Virus record (IMG/VR): IMGVR_UViG_3300005549_000017
Span: 1 to 36,283 of that record
Strand: one strand, 5' to 3'
DNA length: 36,283 bases
From: a virus
Below, one piece after another: positions 3,242 through 31,346 of the stretch. The translations under genes were made by a program, and so were the position numbers. The notes beneath the pieces were generated by a model. The model did no database searches and was not told where the DNA came from. It was given only the letters and a program-made list of their open reading frames with translations. Each line of letters starts with the position of its first letter. The stretch's first letter is position 1.

Positions 3242-4074
3242 AGCTCCTCATTGTCAACCCCGGCACCGACATCGCGGGCTGCGGTATCGCGCTGAAGTAC
3301 GCCTTCGACCGGCACGCTCCCGAATGGACTGCCCATCATGTTCGCAGACTCCCGAGTATCTACGATTACCCCACCGATCGCCCCTGGTCAGAACTGGAAT
3401 CGCTGTGGCTTGAGGCTGACTTGGTGCATGTCATGGACGATCCTCGCATTCTGCGAGAGCTGCCAGCTCGCCCCAACGTATTCGTGCAGTATCTGGGCTC
3501 GACCTTCCGCAAGTATCGGGACGAGCTCCTCCGCATTTGCCGCGAGTACGGGGCTAGGCAAACGGGGAGCCTTGATCTATTAGGGCCTGACATCGAATGG
3601 CTGCCAGTGGCGTTCGATTCCGCCAACCTTCAGCACAATGGCAACGGGCAGGTGAAGATTGCGCACGCCCCGACCGACCGGGCATTGAAGTCCACTGACC
3701 TCATCATCGAGGCTGTTGGGCGGCTCCCGGTTGCGTTTGACCTGATCGAACGGGTTCCGCACCGCGAATGCCTTGATCGCAAGGCTCAGGCGGACATCTA
3801 CGTCGACGAACTGACGCTAGGTTACGGTCTCAACGCCATCGAGTGCTGGGCAATGGGCATCCCGGTTGTGTCCGGTATGACGATTGGACGAGAGGCGCTG
3901 ACGTTCGAGGTGCCTTGGGAGGATGCTACGGCTGCGACTCTGTACGACGTGCTCCTGCGGCTGGTGGAGTCAGCCGACCAACGCAAGCTCGCCGCGGACC
4001 GCGGTAAGGCACACGTAGAGCGGTACCACGCGCCAGCCGCTGTGGTCCAGCGTGTGCTCGAGTTGGCCGCATGA
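3238..4074 (+). CDS. GT-B fold glycosyltransferase (GT4-like)
   Basis: This 278-residue protein starts with KLLIVNPGTDIAGCG, a Rossmann strand and loop. It continues with ADLVHVMDDPRI and a second Rossmann half (VKIAHAPTDRALKSTDLIIEAV). The C-terminal donor-binding segment has YVDELTLGYGLNAIECWAMGIPVV, in which E202 matches the conserved acidic residue of the GT4 EX7E region. It is somewhat short for the family. The GTG start overlaps the previous stop. Its place between GT-A enzymes suggests it adds another sugar to the same glycan. Confidence 0.7.
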   Translation: MKLLIVNPGTDIAGCGIALKYAFDRHAPEWTAHHVRRLPSIYDYPTDRPWSELESLWLEADLVHVMDDPRILRELPARPNVFVQYLGSTFRKYRDELLRICREYGARQTGSLDLLGPDIEWLPVAFDSANLQHNGNGQVKIAHAPTDRALKSTDLIIEAVGRLPVAFDLIERVPHRECLDRKAQADIYVDELTLGYGLNAIECWAMGIPVVSGMTIGREALTFEVPWEDATAATLYDVLLRLVESADQRKLAADRGKAHVERYHAPAAVVQRVLELAA

Positions 4075-13141: not shown

Positions 13142-14833
13142 TTGTCCGACGAACTCACTGCCGATACCGAAATCCATGACGAGCTTGCGGAGCCCGTCGA
13201 ACCCCAACACCGCACCCTCGATGTTGACGAGCCGCTGGTTACCTTGTCGATCAGTCAGCGTCGGATCGGCCTGCGGCTGCTGACCTACAACCAGGTGGTC
13301 GAGTCGAAGTACGGGCCGATCCTGTTCGAGCCCGGTGCCTTCGGCAAGGTCGATCCCGGCAAGGTCCGGCTGCGGATGGATCACGAGGATCCACCCACCG
13401 GCTTGGGGATCAGCTTCTCGGATACCCCCGATGCTCCACAAATGGAGTTCCGCGTGTCGAAGACGGCGCGCGGCAATGACCAGCTAACCCTCGCCGTCGA
13501 CGGCGTGTCGCGCGGCGTGTCGGTTGGCTTCGACGATGTTCCTGGCGGGCCTCAGGTCAAGACGCTCAGCGGACGTCGCACGCTCGTCTATCCGCCGAAC
13601 TCGGCGGTCCTCGCTGAAGCGTCCACGACCTGGATGCCGACGTTCCCACAACCCCACGCTGGGGTCATGTATGTCCTGAACAAGGACGCGAAAGGAGAAG
13701 GCCCACAGATGGCCGAGACCCAGGAGGCTCCGGCCGTCGGAGCCGCAAACCTCGATACCGGACCCTTCATCGAAATCCTGCACCGCGAGATGTCGGGGCA
13801 GGATGAGAAGATCGATAAGGTGCTGACCGCCTTCGACCAGTGGCGGGACGAGCAGCGCAGCCAGTTCACCATTCCCTCCACTCCCCAGGTGCAGTCACCC
13901 AAGCTGCACCACTGGGTGGAGATGGCGCTGCGCACCATGCGCGGTCAGTCCCTGTCGCCGACGCTGCTCAAGGAGCTGGCGCTCGACGATGTGGTTATCG
14001 CCGACAACCCCGGCCTGGTGCCGGACGTCCTGACCCCGGACTACGACGACCTCATCAACAGCGACCGGCCGTTCTGCCAGTCGACTCGCAAGATCGACCC
14101 GCCGGCCACCGGCACGTCGATGATCTTGCCGATCATCACCCAGCGCGCCGTGGCGGGCACCCAGTCGGAGGAGAAAGCCGACCTGTCGACCACGGCCACC
14201 CAGGTCGGGACCGGCACCTTCGGCTACCTGTCGGTGTTCGGTGGCGCTGACATCTCGATCCAGATGCTCAACCGCGCCGAGCGCAGCTTCTTCGACCTCC
14301 TGACCGGAGACCTCGGCGAAGCATATGCGCTCGACTGCGACAGCAAGGCGATCGACGCCCTGCTGACGGGCTACACCGACAGTGCCTCTGGCTCGCACAC
14401 TCCTGACGATGCAGGCGTGATGGACCCCACCTCTCCGGGCTTCGGCACGGCCTGGCAGACCTCGATCACCAATTCGCGCCGAGCGCCGGACACGATCTGG
14501 ATGAGTGCTGCCGCGGTGGCCGCCTTCATCGACGCGGTGAACCCGACTACCAACGGGCCGCTCTACTCGAACCTGGCGGCAGCCTTCACGGCTGGCGGCG
14601 GGCCGGGTGGAACGCTGTCCGGCCTGCGGCCGGTGTACGTGCCGGCCATGAATGACTCCGGCGTGGATGTCATCGTCGGGCCGTCGCGCGGATTCGTGTG
14701 GGCGGAGGACCCGGCCCGCAACCTGCAGGTCGACGTGCCGTCCAAGGCTGGTCGGGACATCGCCCTGGTGGGCGGCATCTTCCCGGCTCCGCGCTTTGCG
14801 GATTCGTTCACGACCTGGACCATCTCGAGCTGA
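13142..14833 (+). CDS. Fused prohead protease and HK97-type major capsid protein
   Basis: The first about 185 residues match HK97-family prohead proteases: IGLRLLTYNQVVESKYGPILFEPGAF in short form, RLRMDHEDPPTGLG with catalytic His H81, and GVSRGVSVGF with catalytic Ser S127. A helical linker follows (about 205-245, REMSGQDEKIDKVLTAFDQW), where HK97 capsids carry the scaffolding delta domain. The remaining about 300 residues are an HK97-fold capsid (TPDYDDLINSDRPF, ATGTSMILPIITQ, ending PRFADSFTTWTISS). One continuous frame of 563 residues therefore supplies protease, scaffold and shell. The TTG start has a strong AGGAGG site. Cleavage probably separates the parts during head maturation. Confidence 0.9.
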   Translation: MSDELTADTEIHDELAEPVEPQHRTLDVDEPLVTLSISQRRIGLRLLTYNQVVESKYGPILFEPGAFGKVDPGKVRLRMDHEDPPTGLGISFSDTPDAPQMEFRVSKTARGNDQLTLAVDGVSRGVSVGFDDVPGGPQVKTLSGRRTLVYPPNSAVLAEASTTWMPTFPQPHAGVMYVLNKDAKGEGPQMAETQEAPAVGAANLDTGPFIEILHREMSGQDEKIDKVLTAFDQWRDEQRSQFTIPSTPQVQSPKLHHWVEMALRTMRGQSLSPTLLKELALDDVVIADNPGLVPDVLTPDYDDLINSDRPFCQSTRKIDPPATGTSMILPIITQRAVAGTQSEEKADLSTTATQVGTGTFGYLSVFGGADISIQMLNRAERSFFDLLTGDLGEAYALDCDSKAIDALLTGYTDSASGSHTPDDAGVMDPTSPGFGTAWQTSITNSRRAPDTIWMSAAAVAAFIDAVNPTTNGPLYSNLAAAFTAGGGPGGTLSGLRPVYVPAMNDSGVDVIVGPSRGFVWAEDPARNLQVDVPSKAGRDIALVGGIFPAPRFADSFTTWTISS

Positions 14834-16346: not shown

Positions 16347-17420
16347 ATGTCCGTTGGACTCGTCAAGGCACGGCGGCACCTGTTCGCCCGTCAAACCGCT
16401 TTCGGCACGCCGGTTCCTGCCGTGCGCGCCTACCCGTTCACTGGCGTCCCGTCGCAGGACGAGCAGTGGACCGACCCCGAAGGTGACTTCGGAAAGGTGT
16501 ACCCCGTCAGCTCACCGTATCGTGGGGCGGGCGCGTACACCCAAAGCGTCACCGACAACGCGCTCGACTACAACACCCTCACGCTGCTGCTGTCGGGCTT
16601 CTTCGGCGGCGATGTCAGCCCGAGCGGCGGTCCGGACTACACCTGGGCGCATGAGGATACCGGCGACGGCACGAGTGTCGATGACGTCTTCAGCCGCGAG
16701 TTCGGCGACGATGCCGATGGCGACGTGTCCGATGAGCCGAACGACTGGGAGCTCAACAGCGATGGGCTGATGACCAGCCTGACCATCGACTCGCCCGAAC
16801 AGGGATCCGGCGTCCTCACCGCCTCGGGTGACTGGATGTTCGCATCCTACTTCTATGCCGGCTCGACCGACAACCCGCCGCCCAGCTCCATCCCGTCGAT
16901 CACCGACACGCCCGATACCAACCCGCCCTACGTCTATCTCAAGGACTTCACCTTCTACATGGACTCCGATGCCAGTGACATCGGCTCCAACCAGGTCAGC
17001 GACACGCTCTACAAGTTCACCCTGACCGGCACCCGCGAGATCGACAAGAAGCAGTGGGTCAATGGGACTGGCAGTTTCGCACCGCAGGAGCTGAAGACCG
17101 CCAGCCGCACGCTGGGCATCGACCTGGTGTACGCCAAGACGGTTGACGCGGTGGGCGTCGGCTCAGAGAAGGACGCTTGGTCGGCCGACGCCTCGGAGAA
17201 CCGCTATCTGAGCCTGGTGGCCGAGTCACCTCTGCTCATCCCCGGCTCCGCGACCCCCTATTCGTGGGGCTTCTCGATGCCGGTGCGCTACTACACCATG
17301 ACCCACGGCAACATCGGTGGCAACACGACCACCATTCTGCACGGCAACGCCTTCGTCGACGAAGTTGTGCCGGTGTTCAGCTCCGATCTGGTCAACGCCC
17401 TGTCGGCGGCCGAGCTGTGA
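16347..17420 (+). CDS. Major tail tube protein
   Basis: The ATG has AAGGAG 8 bases upstream (16333-16338) after a 72-base gap, which suits a highly expressed gene. The 357-residue product starts with VKARRHLFARQTAFGTPVPAVRAYPFTGVPS. It contains alternating beta strands with TSLTIDSPEQGSGVLTASG and YLKDFTFYMDSDA, and a long end with FSMPVRYYTMTHG. It precedes the chaperone pair and tape measure, as tube proteins do in siphoviruses. The length is larger than small tube proteins, so extra surface domains are likely. Confidence 0.75.
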   Translation: MSVGLVKARRHLFARQTAFGTPVPAVRAYPFTGVPSQDEQWTDPEGDFGKVYPVSSPYRGAGAYTQSVTDNALDYNTLTLLLSGFFGGDVSPSGGPDYTWAHEDTGDGTSVDDVFSREFGDDADGDVSDEPNDWELNSDGLMTSLTIDSPEQGSGVLTASGDWMFASYFYAGSTDNPPPSSIPSITDTPDTNPPYVYLKDFTFYMDSDASDIGSNQVSDTLYKFTLTGTREIDKKQWVNGTGSFAPQELKTASRTLGIDLVYAKTVDAVGVGSEKDAWSADASENRYLSLVAESPLLIPGSATPYSWGFSMPVRYYTMTHGNIGGNTTTILHGNAFVDEVVPVFSSDLVNALSAAEL

Positions 17421-18046
17421 GCGGCCTGATCGACGTTCGGATCGGGGAGTGCCAGTGCCCGGAGACTCCCCATCCGAACGGTGACTACGTGTCCCTGCGA
17501 CCGATCCTCGATCTGCGGGGCGGATATAGGGTCAAGCGTCGGCTGATGGACCTGAACCGCGCGGCGCAGGTTGAGCGGATCAAGGCACTGCACGAGTCAG
17601 GGACCAGCGTGAAGGAGCTGGCACTGCGCTTCGAGCTGCCGCCCGACAATATCAAGGCGATCGTGCTGGGCAAGGGCGAGTACCAGGGACCGCCTCCCGA
17701 TCCTGCCGAGATGGAGGCCGATCTGGCCGAGTCGTATCTGTTGGAAGGGATCGCCGAGTGGAACCTGGTGGGTGCCGATGGGCCGTTGCCGGTCACACCA
17801 GACCTGATCCGCTCCCAGTTGTTCACCAACTACGGTCGGGCTGAGGCGGCCGCTGACAAGGCGGACGACCTGTACCGACCGGCGGTGCTCGACCCTTTAC
17901 TGCAAAGGGCGTTGAGTTCCTTGCCGGCTACGCCGACCAGCGAATCGACATCAGCGACGAATGGGCATGGACCGAAGCGATCGAAGGCATCGAAGCCGTC
18001 CTCGATCGAGAGTATCCCGATGGAAGACACCGTGGCGATCACCTGA
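17417..18046 (+). CDS. Tail assembly chaperone, zero-frame product (gpG-like)
   Basis: The GTG at 17417 overlaps the tube protein stop. The 209-residue product begins DVRIGECQCPETPHPNGDYVSLRP, a hallmark start of many phage tail assembly chaperones. A middle EGIAEWNLVGADGPLPVTPD and a Ser/Thr/Pro-rich end follow. Between them lies an HTH-like segment (about 54-92, RIKALHESGTSVKELALRF), unusual for this family. The next gene is the tape measure. In the family this protein coats the tape measure before tube assembly. A slippery site at 17893-17899 lets part of the ribosomes make a longer form. Confidence 0.8.
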   Translation: MSGLIDVRIGECQCPETPHPNGDYVSLRPILDLRGGYRVKRRLMDLNRAAQVERIKALHESGTSVKELALRFELPPDNIKAIVLGKGEYQGPPPDPAEMEADLAESYLLEGIAEWNLVGADGPLPVTPDLIRSQLFTNYGRAEAAADKADDLYRPAVLDPLLQRALSSLPATPTSESTSATNGHGPKRSKASKPSSIESIPMEDTVAIT

Positions 18047-18153
18047 TCGCGCGCTGGCGCCTGCAGCACTTAGCTGAGATGGGCGTCGGAACGGTGATGC
18101 GCCAACAGCGGGCGCTCGAGGACGAACAAGTGAGACGACGGAGGAGACGGTAG
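17417..18153 (+). CDS. Tail assembly chaperone, -1 frameshift product (gpGT-like)
   Basis: Reading the zero frame to 17899 and then slipping back one base opens a frame that runs to TAG 18151-18153, directly before the tape measure GTG. The fused product is about 245 residues, with an 84-residue extension such as DEWAWTEAIEGIEAVLDREYPDG and DHLIARWRLQHLAEMGV, and an Arg-rich end. The extension looks like real protein and has no own start. This is the layout of lambda G and G-T, in which the fusion links chaperone to tube and tape measure. Confidence 0.8.
17893..17899 (+). promoter_or_regulatory. Programmed -1 frameshift slippery heptamer C CCU UUA
   Basis: In the zero frame the codons are CCT TTA, and after slippage they read CCC TTT, so the heptamer fits the X XXY YYZ rule exactly. 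The heptamer begins a perfect inverted repeat, CCCTTT-ACTGC-AAAGGG (17893-17909), which could form a hairpin. Position near the end of the chaperone gene and ahead of the -1 frame makes it functionally convincing. Confidence 0.8.
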
Positions 18154-20382
18154 GTGGCACTCTCTGACACCGCGCGCCTGATCTCCTCGCTGGAGTTGCA
18201 GGACAAGTTCACGAAGACCGCCCAGGCTGGTGAGCAGGCGCTGGGCAGCCTCGAGTCCAAGTCCAACTTCGTGACCAAGGGCTTCGGTCTGATGGGGCAG
18301 GCCGGCGGCGCGGTCGGCAACGCCTTCGGCACGCTGAAGGGACGCATCGGCCAGCTCATCTCCGGCCCGCTCGGCATGCTGGGGCTGGGAGCGGGGCTGT
18401 TCGGCGTCGGCAAGTTCTTCACCGATGCGGTGACGAGTACCCAAGACTTCGGCAAGGAGGTAGGCCGCCTCGCGGCGCTCACTGGGCTCGGCACCGAGCA
18501 GACCTCTAGGCTGGCGGGTGCCTTCGAGCACTTCGGGATCGAGACCGATCAGGCCCTGACTATCGTTGGCTTCGCTGAGAAGACGCTTGGCAAGCTGACT
18601 GCCACCGGGGCCAACGCCGAGAAGCAGGCGGACGATCTCGCTTCAGCGCAGCGCGACCTGACGCTGGCGCAGCTCAAGCTCAACGAGGCACAGGCCCGGT
18701 ACCGCGCTGACTCGTCGCAGGTATTGGCTGCCCAGAACCGGGTCATGGATGCGCAGGACGCGCTGAATACGTTGGTCGAAGATGGTGGCGTCATCGTCGG
18801 CGGGGCGGCCGGCTTCTTCAACAAGTACGGGCTGGCCCTGACCGATTCGGCGGGCAAGATCAAGGACACCAACACCCTCCTGCTTGATACGGCTGACTTC
18901 TTCAACAACGAGACCATTCCGGCCGAGACTAAGGCGGCAGCGTTGTCCACGTTGTTCGGCAAGAGCTGGCAGACCCTGATCCCGTTCCTCTCAGCCGGCC
19001 GCGCCGGAATAGCGAAGGTTGAAGAGGAACTTGCTGGCCTTGGACTGACGTTGAAAAGCGAGGACCTTGCCCAACTCGCCAAGTTGAAGGACGCCACTCG
19101 CAACTGGACTTCGGCACTCGGCGGGCTCAAGTTGCAACTCGGGCTGGCGTTGGTCCCACTGCTCACGGGTCTAGCCACAAGTGCCTCCAAGTTCCTTGCG
19201 ACAGCCGACCAGTTCGGCGTGACCGGCACCCAGAAGATCGTCGGCTTCTTCAAGGACGTCATCACCTTCGGCGAAAAGGCGTTTGGCATCATCCAGGACC
19301 GCGTGGTGCCCATCGTCAAGAAGGTGATCGACGGTTGGAACAACCTGCCCGAGCCACTGAAGGGGCTGCTGGTCAAGGGTGTGGCCGGCAACTTCGCTAT
19401 CAAGTTCCTGCTCGGCTTCGATCCGATAGCGATAGCGGGGTCCGCGGCGTCAGCGATCGCTGGCAAGTTGGCCGCTGCTGCGGCTGGATCACTCGCTGGA
19501 TTCGTGGGCGACTTCTTCGGCAAGGTGGCGACCAATAAGCTCGTCCCACAGCTTGTCTCTGCCGTTGCACCCATCCCGGTGTTCGTGACTAACCCCGGTT
19601 TCGGCCTTCCGGGTGGGGGTGGCCCTGGCGCTCCGGTGCCTACTCCTACGTCTACCCCGTGGTGGGTTGGCGCGTTGCGGTTCCTCGGCATCGGTGGTAC
19701 CGCGCTGGCTATCGGAGAGATCGCGGGTCAGAGCAACGTCAACAACAAGACTCAGATCCAGATGCTCCGCCAACAGCTCCTCGCCACCGGGGATGTCAAA
19801 GACGCGCTCACCAAGAGTGGGGCGACGCTCGGGGCGATCAACGAGCTACTGGCCCACCCAGACCGTCAGACCGGACTCAGCCCAGACATCCTCGATGCGC
19901 TCGATGCGATCGACGGCAAGATGGGTGATCTCGTCACGAATACCAAGCCGTTCATCGGCCAACTGCCCGGCGCTCCTGGCGGCGGTCGGTCATCGATAAT
20001 CAACACCCAGGACGACGTTGACCGTGAGCGGATGGCCCGTGGTCTGACCACGCTGGCCGATACAGCCCTCGCACCCCTGGGCTCGATTGAGAAGGACGTG
20101 GCGATCCTGCCCAGCATCGATGAACGGCTCGCTGCGCTGGGCAAGGTGGCACTCAACACCAAGGACGACGTGGCTCGCGAACGGATGGCCCGTGTCGCGG
20201 CTGCCTCTGAGCGAACCGCCAACAAGAACTTCAGCCCGACCGTCAACGTCAACGCCAGAGTCACCATCCCGATCACCAACAACGTCAGCATCAGCAGCTC
20301 GAACGTGGTCCGCACTCTGACCACCTATACCGCTGCCCTTGGCTCTGGTCCCGGCGGGGCGCTCGACGCCACCCTACTGTGA
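18154..20382 (+). CDS. Tape measure protein
   Basis: The GTG immediately follows the stop of the -1 frame. The 742-residue protein has an N-terminal hydrophobic stretch (LISGPLGMLGLGAGLFGVGKFF), a coiled-coil region (about 155-215, LASAQRDLTLAQLKLNEAQARY), and further hydrophobic helices (LALVPLLTGLA, SAASAIAGKLAAAAAG, FLGIGGTALAIGEIAG). Two related short segments with ARERMARV/DRERMARG occur near the C-terminus. These are typical of tape measure proteins, which set tail length and help DNA entry. At about 1.5 angstrom per residue the tail would be near 110 nm. Confidence 0.88.
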   Translation: MALSDTARLISSLELQDKFTKTAQAGEQALGSLESKSNFVTKGFGLMGQAGGAVGNAFGTLKGRIGQLISGPLGMLGLGAGLFGVGKFFTDAVTSTQDFGKEVGRLAALTGLGTEQTSRLAGAFEHFGIETDQALTIVGFAEKTLGKLTATGANAEKQADDLASAQRDLTLAQLKLNEAQARYRADSSQVLAAQNRVMDAQDALNTLVEDGGVIVGGAAGFFNKYGLALTDSAGKIKDTNTLLLDTADFFNNETIPAETKAAALSTLFGKSWQTLIPFLSAGRAGIAKVEEELAGLGLTLKSEDLAQLAKLKDATRNWTSALGGLKLQLGLALVPLLTGLATSASKFLATADQFGVTGTQKIVGFFKDVITFGEKAFGIIQDRVVPIVKKVIDGWNNLPEPLKGLLVKGVAGNFAIKFLLGFDPIAIAGSAASAIAGKLAAAAAGSLAGFVGDFFGKVATNKLVPQLVSAVAPIPVFVTNPGFGLPGGGGPGAPVPTPTSTPWWVGALRFLGIGGTALAIGEIAGQSNVNNKTQIQMLRQQLLATGDVKDALTKSGATLGAINELLAHPDRQTGLSPDILDALDAIDGKMGDLVTNTKPFIGQLPGAPGGGRSSIINTQDDVDRERMARGLTTLADTALAPLGSIEKDVAILPSIDERLAALGKVALNTKDDVARERMARVAAASERTANKNFSPTVNVNARVTIPITNNVSISSSNVVRTLTTYTAALGSGPGGALDATLL

Positions 20383-23662: not shown

Positions 23663-23886
23663 CCTACGACGACTCGCCGCTGCTCCCGAGCGAACCCCGG
23701 CTGGCGCTAGACCAGCCCATTCAGCAGGGGGAGGTCCGGGCCGGTGCGGGCACGTCCGAAGCTCCCGCTCCCCCTGACTGCCGCTGGTGCGGTGGCCGCG
23801 GCTACTACATCGGTGGCGACGAGGAGCACGTCTGCTGGTGCAAACGTGACGAGGCGGAGGCGGCTGGCAAGCCGTTGTCGTGGTGA
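23659..23886 (+). CDS. Small zinc-binding-type protein with CRWCGGRG
   Basis: The 75-residue product starts at the ATG overlapping the previous stop. After an acidic, Pro-rich first half it has CRWCGGRGYYIGG and HVCWCKRDE, two CxxC/CxC pairs about 20 residues apart, similar to half of a DnaJ-type zinc finger. The in-frame upstream extension is shadow sequence of the membrane gene. Function unknown; it belongs to the group of CWC-containing small proteins of this region. Confidence 0.6.
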   Translation: MTYDDSPLLPSEPRLALDQPIQQGEVRAGAGTSEAPAPPDCRWCGGRGYYIGGDEEHVCWCKRDEAEAAGKPLSW

Positions 23887-24380
23887 GTAAGTGGGGCTCT
23901 TACAAGGAGAGCGAGCAGGCCCGCGCCAAGCGGCTTGCACGGATGAAGGCATACCGGCTCGCCCACCCGGATCTGATACAGGCTCAGGCTCACGCCACCT
24001 ATGAGCGTACCAAGGAACGGGTCATGGCCTATCGGGCAGCTCACAAGGATGAGATCGCCGCCTACCACCGAGCCTACCGCGTAACCCACCTAGAGGAGAG
24101 ACGCGCAGCGGCTAGGGCGCGACAGACACGCCCAGAACAGCGTGAGCGAGAACGCATCCGTGAGGCGGCGCGGCGGGCAAAGCCGGACTACAACCATAAG
24201 CAGGCCGCTAGGCAGCAGGTCTACCAGGCTAAGAAAAAGGGCCTGCTGGTCCCCACTCCCTGCTTCTGCTGCGGTGATCCCAAGGTTCACGCGCATCACC
24301 ACAATGGGTATGACCATCCACTCGATGTGGTCTGGCTCTGCTCACTCCACCACGCCTATGCACATGCGGGGCTGCTGTGA
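23883..24380 (+). CDS. HNH-like endonuclease with long basic N-terminus
   Basis: The C-terminal part has PCFCCGDPKVHAHHHNGYDHPL and WLCSLHHAYAH, the C-C/HHH-N-H pattern of a zinc-bound HNH nuclease subgroup common in phages. The first about 115 residues are a highly basic helical stretch with repeated MKAYRLAHPD, MAYRAAHKD and YHRAYRVTH segments, probably for DNA contact. A GTG start overlaps the previous stop. It could be a free-standing homing nuclease. Confidence 0.65.
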   Translation: MSKWGSYKESEQARAKRLARMKAYRLAHPDLIQAQAHATYERTKERVMAYRAAHKDEIAAYHRAYRVTHLEERRAAARARQTRPEQRERERIREAARRAKPDYNHKQAARQQVYQAKKKGLLVPTPCFCCGDPKVHAHHHNGYDHPLDVVWLCSLHHAYAHAGLL

Positions 24381-24643
24381 TCCCCGACTTCCTGCTTCAC
24401 CCGGACCCCTCGTTCCGTGGGTTCAGCGCCCAGGAGATCGCCGACCTGCGGGCCTTGCGCGAGCTGCATCGCCCTTGGTCCTCGGCCGACCGCGACCATT
24501 CTGGGGTCCCACTCATAGCGGATGACGGCACGGCTCATGTCGTGGTAATGACGATCGACCTAGTAGAACCCCATGCCCGTCGCTTCTGGGATCAGCACGC
24601 GTCTGAATCATTTGTCCTCACTAACCATCACGTACAGCCATGA
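24377..24643 (+). CDS. Hypothetical 88-residue protein
   Basis: It starts at GTG overlapping the previous stop and ends in an ATGA overlap. The protein has a helical middle (FSAQEIADLRALRELHRPW) and several His residues, with HARRFWDQHASES near the end. I do not recognise a family. Its position between two HNH genes does not suggest a role by itself. Confidence 0.6.
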   Translation: MIPDFLLHPDPSFRGFSAQEIADLRALRELHRPWSSADRDHSGVPLIADDGTAHVVVMTIDLVEPHARRFWDQHASESFVLTNHHVQP

Positions 24644-25116
24644 AGCACTGGGAGATGCTGAAGTACGAACGCTATTGGACGGGACGGGCGGTCCTGACTC
24701 CATTGGGTCGGCTGATGACACGCGTGCGCCTGGGCACGGCTGACGAATGCTGGGAGTGGACCGGGCCGCTCTATAACGGATACGGGCGGGTCAAGGGCAA
24801 GAAGCGCGATGAGATGGTTCACCGCGTCGCCTATGAGTTGCTAGTCGGCCCGGTCCCAAATGGCTTACAGCTCGACCACCTCTGCCGCAACCGAGGATGC
24901 GTCAACCCGGCTCACCTCGAACCGGTAACCAACCGAGTGAACGTACTGCGTGGCGTTAGTCCCATAGCGCGACAGGCTAGGCAAACGCACTGCAAACGCG
25001 GACACCGCCTCGAAGCACCTACGGCTTATGTCAGTAGGGGGCGGCGTATCTGTCGGACCTGCCACAACCTCTATCGTCGCGCTCAGTGGGCCGCACGCCA
25101 CGCGGTGCAGCCGTGA
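24640..25116 (+). CDS. HNH homing endonuclease-type protein with zinc ribbon
   Basis: The core is WEWTGPLYNGYGRV, VHRVAYELLVGPVPNGLQLDHLC, RGCVNPAHLEPVTNRVN, in which LDHLC, N and NPAHLE form the HNH site of the phage HNH_3 type. A C-terminal zinc ribbon (HCKRGHRL, RRICRTCHNLYRR) follows. This is the textbook layout of phage HNH endonucleases of 150-180 residues. It is embedded in the early block with 4-base overlaps, and may be a mobile homing gene. Confidence 0.8.
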   Translation: MKHWEMLKYERYWTGRAVLTPLGRLMTRVRLGTADECWEWTGPLYNGYGRVKGKKRDEMVHRVAYELLVGPVPNGLQLDHLCRNRGCVNPAHLEPVTNRVNVLRGVSPIARQARQTHCKRGHRLEAPTAYVSRGRRICRTCHNLYRRAQWAARHAVQP

Positions 25117-30626: not shown

Positions 30627-30641
30627 TAAGAGGTGGAACCC

Positions 30642-31346
30642 GTGGCTCTCTCCACAAAGACGCGCTTCGAGGTACTCAAGCGCGACCGCTATACCTGCTC
30701 GTACTGCGGCAAGCATCCGCCCGATGTGCTGCTGGAAGTGGACCACATCACACCACTCGCAGCCGGCGGATCGGATGACCTCTCCAACCTCACCACGGCC
30801 TGCTGGGACTGCAATCGTGGTAAAGGAGCACGACTCCTAGAGGAAGGGACGGCCCCGGCTATCAACCGCGCAGCCGTCGCGGAGATGGCGGAGCGCGTCG
30901 AGCAGGCGAAGGCGTACATGGAGTTGCTCGGCTCGATGGAGTCGATCACCGAGGACCAACTTGATCGAGTCACCCATCGTTGGTCCAAAGCCTACGGGGC
31001 TTCGACCGAAGAGCACGGTGACGGCACCGTCACCTACCGTCTGCCCGTTGATGGCTCCTGGCCTGATCCCCGCAGCGTCAAGAACTTCATCCGTCGACTT
31101 GGCCTCTCGCAGGTGCTCGACGCGGTAGACATAGCCGCCTCTCGCATCCACCATCCGGGTCCGGATGCAGTCCGGTACTTTTATGGCGTCTGCCACCATG
31201 CGATCCGCGAGGGGCGTGAACCACTGAGCCGACAAGGAGAGCCTAGCGAGGTCGATCGGATCGGCGCCATCCTGACCAACCATCAGGAGTACGGTTTCGC
31301 CTCGCTTGAGGATGCCGTCGCAGCATTCTGGCCGTCCGATGGGTAG
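30642..31346 (+). CDS. HNH endonuclease with C-terminal domain
   Basis: The second GTG (30642) has AAGAGG upstream and gives MALSTKTRFEVLKRDRYTCSYCG, the normal HNH start. The site is C19/C22, LEVDHITPLAAGG (D34, H35), N49 and ACWDCNRGKG (C54, C57). A 150-residue C-terminal region follows with helices (AEMAERVEQAKAYMELLG) and WPDPRSVKNFIRRLGLSQVLDAVDIA. This extension is like that of phage HNH proteins placed just before replication initiators. An upstream GTG (30633) is an alternative start. Confidence 0.8.
   Translation: MALSTKTRFEVLKRDRYTCSYCGKHPPDVLLEVDHITPLAAGGSDDLSNLTTACWDCNRGKGARLLEEGTAPAINRAAVAEMAERVEQAKAYMELLGSMESITEDQLDRVTHRWSKAYGASTEEHGDGTVTYRLPVDGSWPDPRSVKNFIRRLGLSQVLDAVDIAASRIHHPGPDAVRYFYGVCHHAIREGREPLSRQGEPSEVDRIGAILTNHQEYGFASLEDAVAAFWPSDG

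Follow-up and report, generated by a model that had tools for sequence, protein, structure and literature searches.

What does the gene that directly precedes the tape measure gene of this virus encode: a single protein, or two that share a start and part ways where ribosomes slip back by one base? The DNA analyzed here (the window) comprises all 36,283 bases of an IMG/VR virus record that is classified as linear. The original prediction, made from the sequence alone, proposed a -1 frameshift in a tail chaperone gene at a heptamer CCCTTTA and pointed out an inverted repeat that might fold the slippery bases into a hairpin. Our comparison with relatives from other contigs makes it very probable that this locus encodes a G/GT-type tail assembly chaperone with a programmed -1 frameshift, i.e., two proteins from one gene, while the hairpin found no support.

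The locus and its neighborhood

The tube, chaperone, and tape measure genes and the sequence elements of the slip site lie on the forward strand. Genes for the portal, terminase, and major head protein are found upstream of the region of interest, and together with the tail tube and tape measure genes they indicate a tailed phage with standard gene order. Over its N-terminal part, the major head protein (positions 13142–14833) resembles proteins in which small Arthrobacter phages fuse capsid and protease (E about 1e-4), which is a weak hint at an actinobacterial host. The 36-kb record also carries three endonuclease genes (23880–24380, 24640–25116, and 30633–31346), two of which are of the HNH type, and no tRNA genes were found in the window.

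The gene directly upstream of the chaperone (16347–17420, 357 aa) was identified as the major tail tube gene from structure: Its product has no sequence family match in PHROG, Pfam, or NCBIfam, and an AlphaFold prediction of only moderate reliability (pLDDT 60.7) is similar in fold to the P74-26 tail tube (8ed0, E 3e-8) and to T5-like tubes. Directly downstream of the chaperone, the gene at 18154–20382 starts with GTG and encodes a tail length tape measure protein of 742 aa, recognized by its matches to tape measure families in PHROG, the best of them at E 5e-16. The order of tube, chaperone, and tape measure gene recurs around the relatives that we collected via the tube gene.

Between these two genes, the 0 frame of the putative chaperone runs from a GTG at 17417 to a TGA at 18044–18046 and encodes 209 aa, which would correspond to the shorter, G-like form; this assignment draws on the reading frame and on relatives. 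The protein has no match in PHROG, Pfam, or NCBIfam and its predicted fold none in the PDB, and weak fold matches in BFVD (E 0.1–0.3) point to Bacillus phage proteins that are annotated as tail assembly chaperones. In INPHARED, neither the chaperone nor the tube gene had a cultured relative apart from one weak match to a Vibrio phage (E 0.1). A search of bacterial genomes likewise revealed no relatives, and 23 pattern matches obtained there were judged to be chance. The chaperone of the window additionally carries an in-frame insert of 42 residues (17573–17698) that is missing from the aligned relatives and, with a weak match to HTH_7 and short fold matches over 35–38 residues, resembles a helix-turn-helix such as occurs in homing endonucleases.

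A slippery heptamer at the junction of two frames

The heptamer C_CCT_TTA at 17893–17899 sits in the canonical frame of the chaperone gene, just as predicted: The 0 frame reads GAC CCT TTA CTG and the -1 frame CCC TTT ACT. CCCTTTA occurs once on the two strands of the window, and since 0.97 copies are expected by chance, its mere presence is no evidence; the case is carried by its frame, its position, and its conservation. The open stretch of the -1 frame spans 17857–18153, and past the slip it comprises an extension of 84 codons plus a TAG (17899–18153, stop at 18151–18153) that abuts the GTG of the tape measure gene at 18154, again in agreement with the prediction. Just past the heptamer, G+C content by codon position is 71, 43, and 63% in the -1 frame, so that the coding pattern seen upstream continues in this frame and is lost in the 0 frame. 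A +1 shift was ruled out for the window, where the heptamer does not lie in an open +1 frame. The last codons of the extension (18140–18153) contain GGAGGAG, the Shine–Dalgarno-like sequence of the tape measure gene; with the stop codon directly abutting the next start, translation of the extension and of the tape measure gene may be coupled.

Conservation among uncultured relatives

A search of IMG/VR with the 209-aa protein yielded a first sample of 14 loci at 28–40% identity. All 14 have the heptamer at the same place and in the canonical frame (13 as CCCTTTA and one as CCCTTTG), and in those not ended by a contig edge the -1 frame runs to near the start of the tape measure gene. One further relative, with CCCTTTC, came from a pattern search that used only the protein motif KADDLY and the adjoining Pro-Leu/Phe codons.

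For an independent sample, we gathered 76 loci by alignment of the tail tube alone, so that they were not chosen by their chaperone; those with a readable next gene gave 54 chaperone clusters at 90% identity, the window included. CCCTTT[ACG] is present at the aligned place in 50 of them, ending in A in 35, C in 9, and G in 6, and the retention of both heptamer and open -1 frame in these 50 independently sampled clusters supports the frameshift reading. Protein-level conservation of the extension is evident from the alignment of relatives. In a profile of 48 representatives, which took only carriers of the heptamer and is to be read beside the count of 50 in 54, each base of CCCTTT is identical, third codon positions included, with varying silent positions on either flank and no comparable run within 40 nt. 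The corresponding residue of the 0 frame alternates between leucine and phenylalanine among relatives while the six bases stay fixed.

The four exceptions are of two kinds. Locus L084 has lost CCCTTT and instead carries TTTTTTA, a heptamer of the HIV type, which is displaced downstream by one codon and likewise in canonical frame (position 3901). The other three clusters form a single subclade without any canonical heptamer (L107:3883, CCCATTG; L137:3873, CCCATTC; L114:3893, ACCCTTG). They have nevertheless retained the -1 extension and must therefore shift by another route, perhaps by slippage of the P-site tRNA alone on C_CCA or at another site.

A rare leucine codon in the presumed A site

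The second codon of the heptamer is TTA in 35 of the 50 clusters and TTT in none. This codon is otherwise avoided: Among the leucine codons of the relatives, TTA accounts for 0 of 298 in tube genes and 0 of 196 in chaperones before the slip (0 of 494 in total), and in the window for 3 of 380 across the main structural genes, one being the slip site itself. Going by the TTN codons used in the window (154 TTC, 33 TTG, 6 TTT, and 3 TTA), TTC would be expected at this place. The frequency of TTA despite this expectation suggests that the last base of the heptamer seems to be under selection as well, which might serve the leucine, slow decoding, or the first codon of the -1 frame.

The rarity of TTA also bears on how the ribosome might slip. 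In one alternative to tandem slippage, only the tRNA-Pro in the P site would exchange CCU for CCC, with the rare UUA still waiting to be read, and tRNA-Phe would then read UUU, leaving phenylalanine at the junction. This route could draw on the scarcity of TTA and would be the sole option for the CCCATT subclade, and the HIV site U_UUU_UUA is known to yield 20–30% Phe junctions (PMC5009743). However, slippage of the P-site tRNA alone explains neither the complete conservation of TTT as second triplet nor the presence of TTC or TTG instead of TTA in 15 of the 50 clusters. We therefore consider it unlikely as the main mechanism, though it may be a minor route beside tandem slippage. A more elaborate proposal is that the otherwise avoided TTA is retained to occupy the A site during the slip, that part of the product arises by P-site-only slippage, and that the ratio of the two chaperone forms depends on the host's tRNA-Leu(UAA). 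Tail assembly would then follow the level of this tRNA in the host, a scenario to which we give quite a low chance.

Candidate stimulators around the slip site

The perfect 6-bp inverted repeat that the original prediction had noted is indeed present, with CCCTTT (17893–17898) and AAAGGG (17904–17909) separated by a 5-base loop, ACTGC. At one site, 0.4% of shuffled sequences contain a 6-bp repeat within 15 nt, which could be taken to favor the suggested unusual layout in which the heptamer acts from within the hairpin. Yet the repeat is not conserved, as only the window has all 6 bp among the 48 representatives and only one other has 5 bp, and the RNA around the heptamer folds no better than shuffles. 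In addition, a ribosome positioned on the slip site would by inference already have melted such a hairpin. The repeat thus looks like chance, and a role of the hairpin in frameshifting is very improbable.

Downstream of the slip, the RNA of 41 representatives was compared with synonymous shuffles in single 50-nt windows at offsets from 3 to 111 nt. At none of these offsets did its stability exceed that of the shuffles, and from 12 to about 84–90 nt it was even less stable, so that no nearby hairpin is indicated at the scale of local 50-nt windows.

Upstream of the slip, the Shine–Dalgarno-like sequence CGGCGGTGC (17880–17888) is a possible weak stimulator with a predicted anti-Shine–Dalgarno duplex of -8.6 kcal/mol. 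Across the family, duplex energy shows an excess (z about -4) in this stretch only, with values near zero in others, and about half of the representatives have GGNGGTG-like sequences upstream of the slip. By a published motif rule (PMC4066793), 21 of 41 representatives carry a Shine–Dalgarno-like motif against 17.3 ± 2.1 expected (p 0.06). The motif of the window by this rule is GGCGG with a gap of 8. With 7 nt to the heptamer, the spacing in the window is shorter than the 9–14 nt given for -1 stimulators (PMC5009743). These sequence patterns are suggestive only and provide no more than a hint of an upstream stimulator.

Is the extension translated on its own?

Overlapping genes are common in phages, and the -1 frame could in principle be an independent gene that starts internally next to an incidental heptamer. 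In the -1 frame of the window, the earliest candidate start (ATG, GTG, or TTG) is indeed an ATG, though it lies 186 nt past the heptamer and thus behind a conserved part of the extension, which therefore needs the slip to be translated. Most relatives similarly have no usable start between the heptamer and about +135 to +171, and locus L004 has none at all. A separate gene would moreover leave the invariant CCCTTT unexplained, and we regard this explanation as highly improbable. Still more remote is a sequencing error or decayed gene that split one open reading frame, because an indel can change the frame at one locus but the same frame change with the same motif in more than 50 chaperone clusters from different contigs already refutes it.

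The part of the 0 frame past the slip, in turn, shows no sign of being kept for itself since its length and basic charge are, in almost all members, those of a simulated by-product of -1 coding; the tail of the window is less basic than in the simulation. Selection on the 0-frame tail was considered and rejected, as divergence at fourfold sites is similar in dual- and single-coding stretches, and counts from two pairs that had hinted at such selection were not upheld across the family.

A model for two chaperone forms

The following model is inferred with regard to the occurrence of the slip in living cells, its frequency, the joint movement of both tRNAs, and what the proteins do. The majority of ribosomes would complete the 0 frame and release the 209-aa G-like protein. 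A minority, with CCU in the P site and UUA in the A site, would move one base back, with both tRNAs re-pairing on CCC and UUU, and read 84 further codons to produce a GT-like fusion of 245 aa that ends at the TAG adjoining the GTG of the tape measure gene. By analogy to lambda, the part shared by both proteins would bind the tape measure protein, while the additional C-terminal part of the fusion would recruit the tail tube subunit.

Several observations count against this programmed frameshift: In E. coli, the A-site codon of the best heptamers consists either of purines only or of pyrimidines only (PMC4066793), which places C_CCU_UUA outside this most efficient class as UUA is neither; there is no signal of downstream structure and only a weak Shine–Dalgarno-like one; three clusters keep the extension without a canonical heptamer; and the chaperone matches no sequence family and has weak fold matches. 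A modest motif without a hairpin would fit a low level of shifting.

Significance and comparison with known systems

Frameshifted tail chaperones are already well known. New here are a chaperone family without any match in PHROG, Pfam, NCBIfam, or cultured phages and the finding that CCCTTT[ACG] is deeply conserved, natural exceptions aside. The titles and abstracts found by a literature search that covered few subscription papers name neither CCCTTTA nor CCCUUUA as a slip site in phages, which does not prove novelty. The findings would assign to the G/GT system a large family of tailed phages that are uncultured and lack annotation, and whose slip motif does not resemble the heptamers that work best in E. 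coli. Annotators should join both frames in genomes that encode this chaperone family. The natural variants (A, C, or G as last base, TTTTTTA, and CCCATT) are suited to study a -1 shift without a hairpin and, thereby, what bacterial ribosomes in GC-rich hosts need for it.

With E. coli dnaX and IS911, the locus would share tandem -1 slippage on bacterial ribosomes and possibly an upstream Shine–Dalgarno-like helper, whereas those systems use A_AAA_AAG with stronger stimulators and here we see no hairpin and a weak Shine–Dalgarno-like signal in about half of the representatives. HIV-1 gag-pol has the A-site codon UUA in common with the window, and its heptamer U_UUU_UUA, which gives mixed Leu/Phe junctions (PMC5009743), is identical to that of locus L084; unlike our phages it is a eukaryotic system with a downstream stem-loop, whereas no downstream structure signal was seen here. 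The closest parallel is the G/GT frameshift of lambda, which is conserved in other long-tailed phages. The slip sequence of lambda is G/A-rich, whereas CCCTTT[ACG] is used here, and the family further differs from lambda in having no detectable sequence relation, a tube gene of two-domain size, and, in the copy of the window, the 42-aa insert. In lambda, the two forms are made at a ratio of about 30:1, with gpG binding the tape measure protein and the T part binding the tube protein (PMC5009743). Both systems are alike in the position before the tape measure gene, the -1 direction, a canonical X_XXY_YYZ heptamer, and a fusion with a C-terminal extension.
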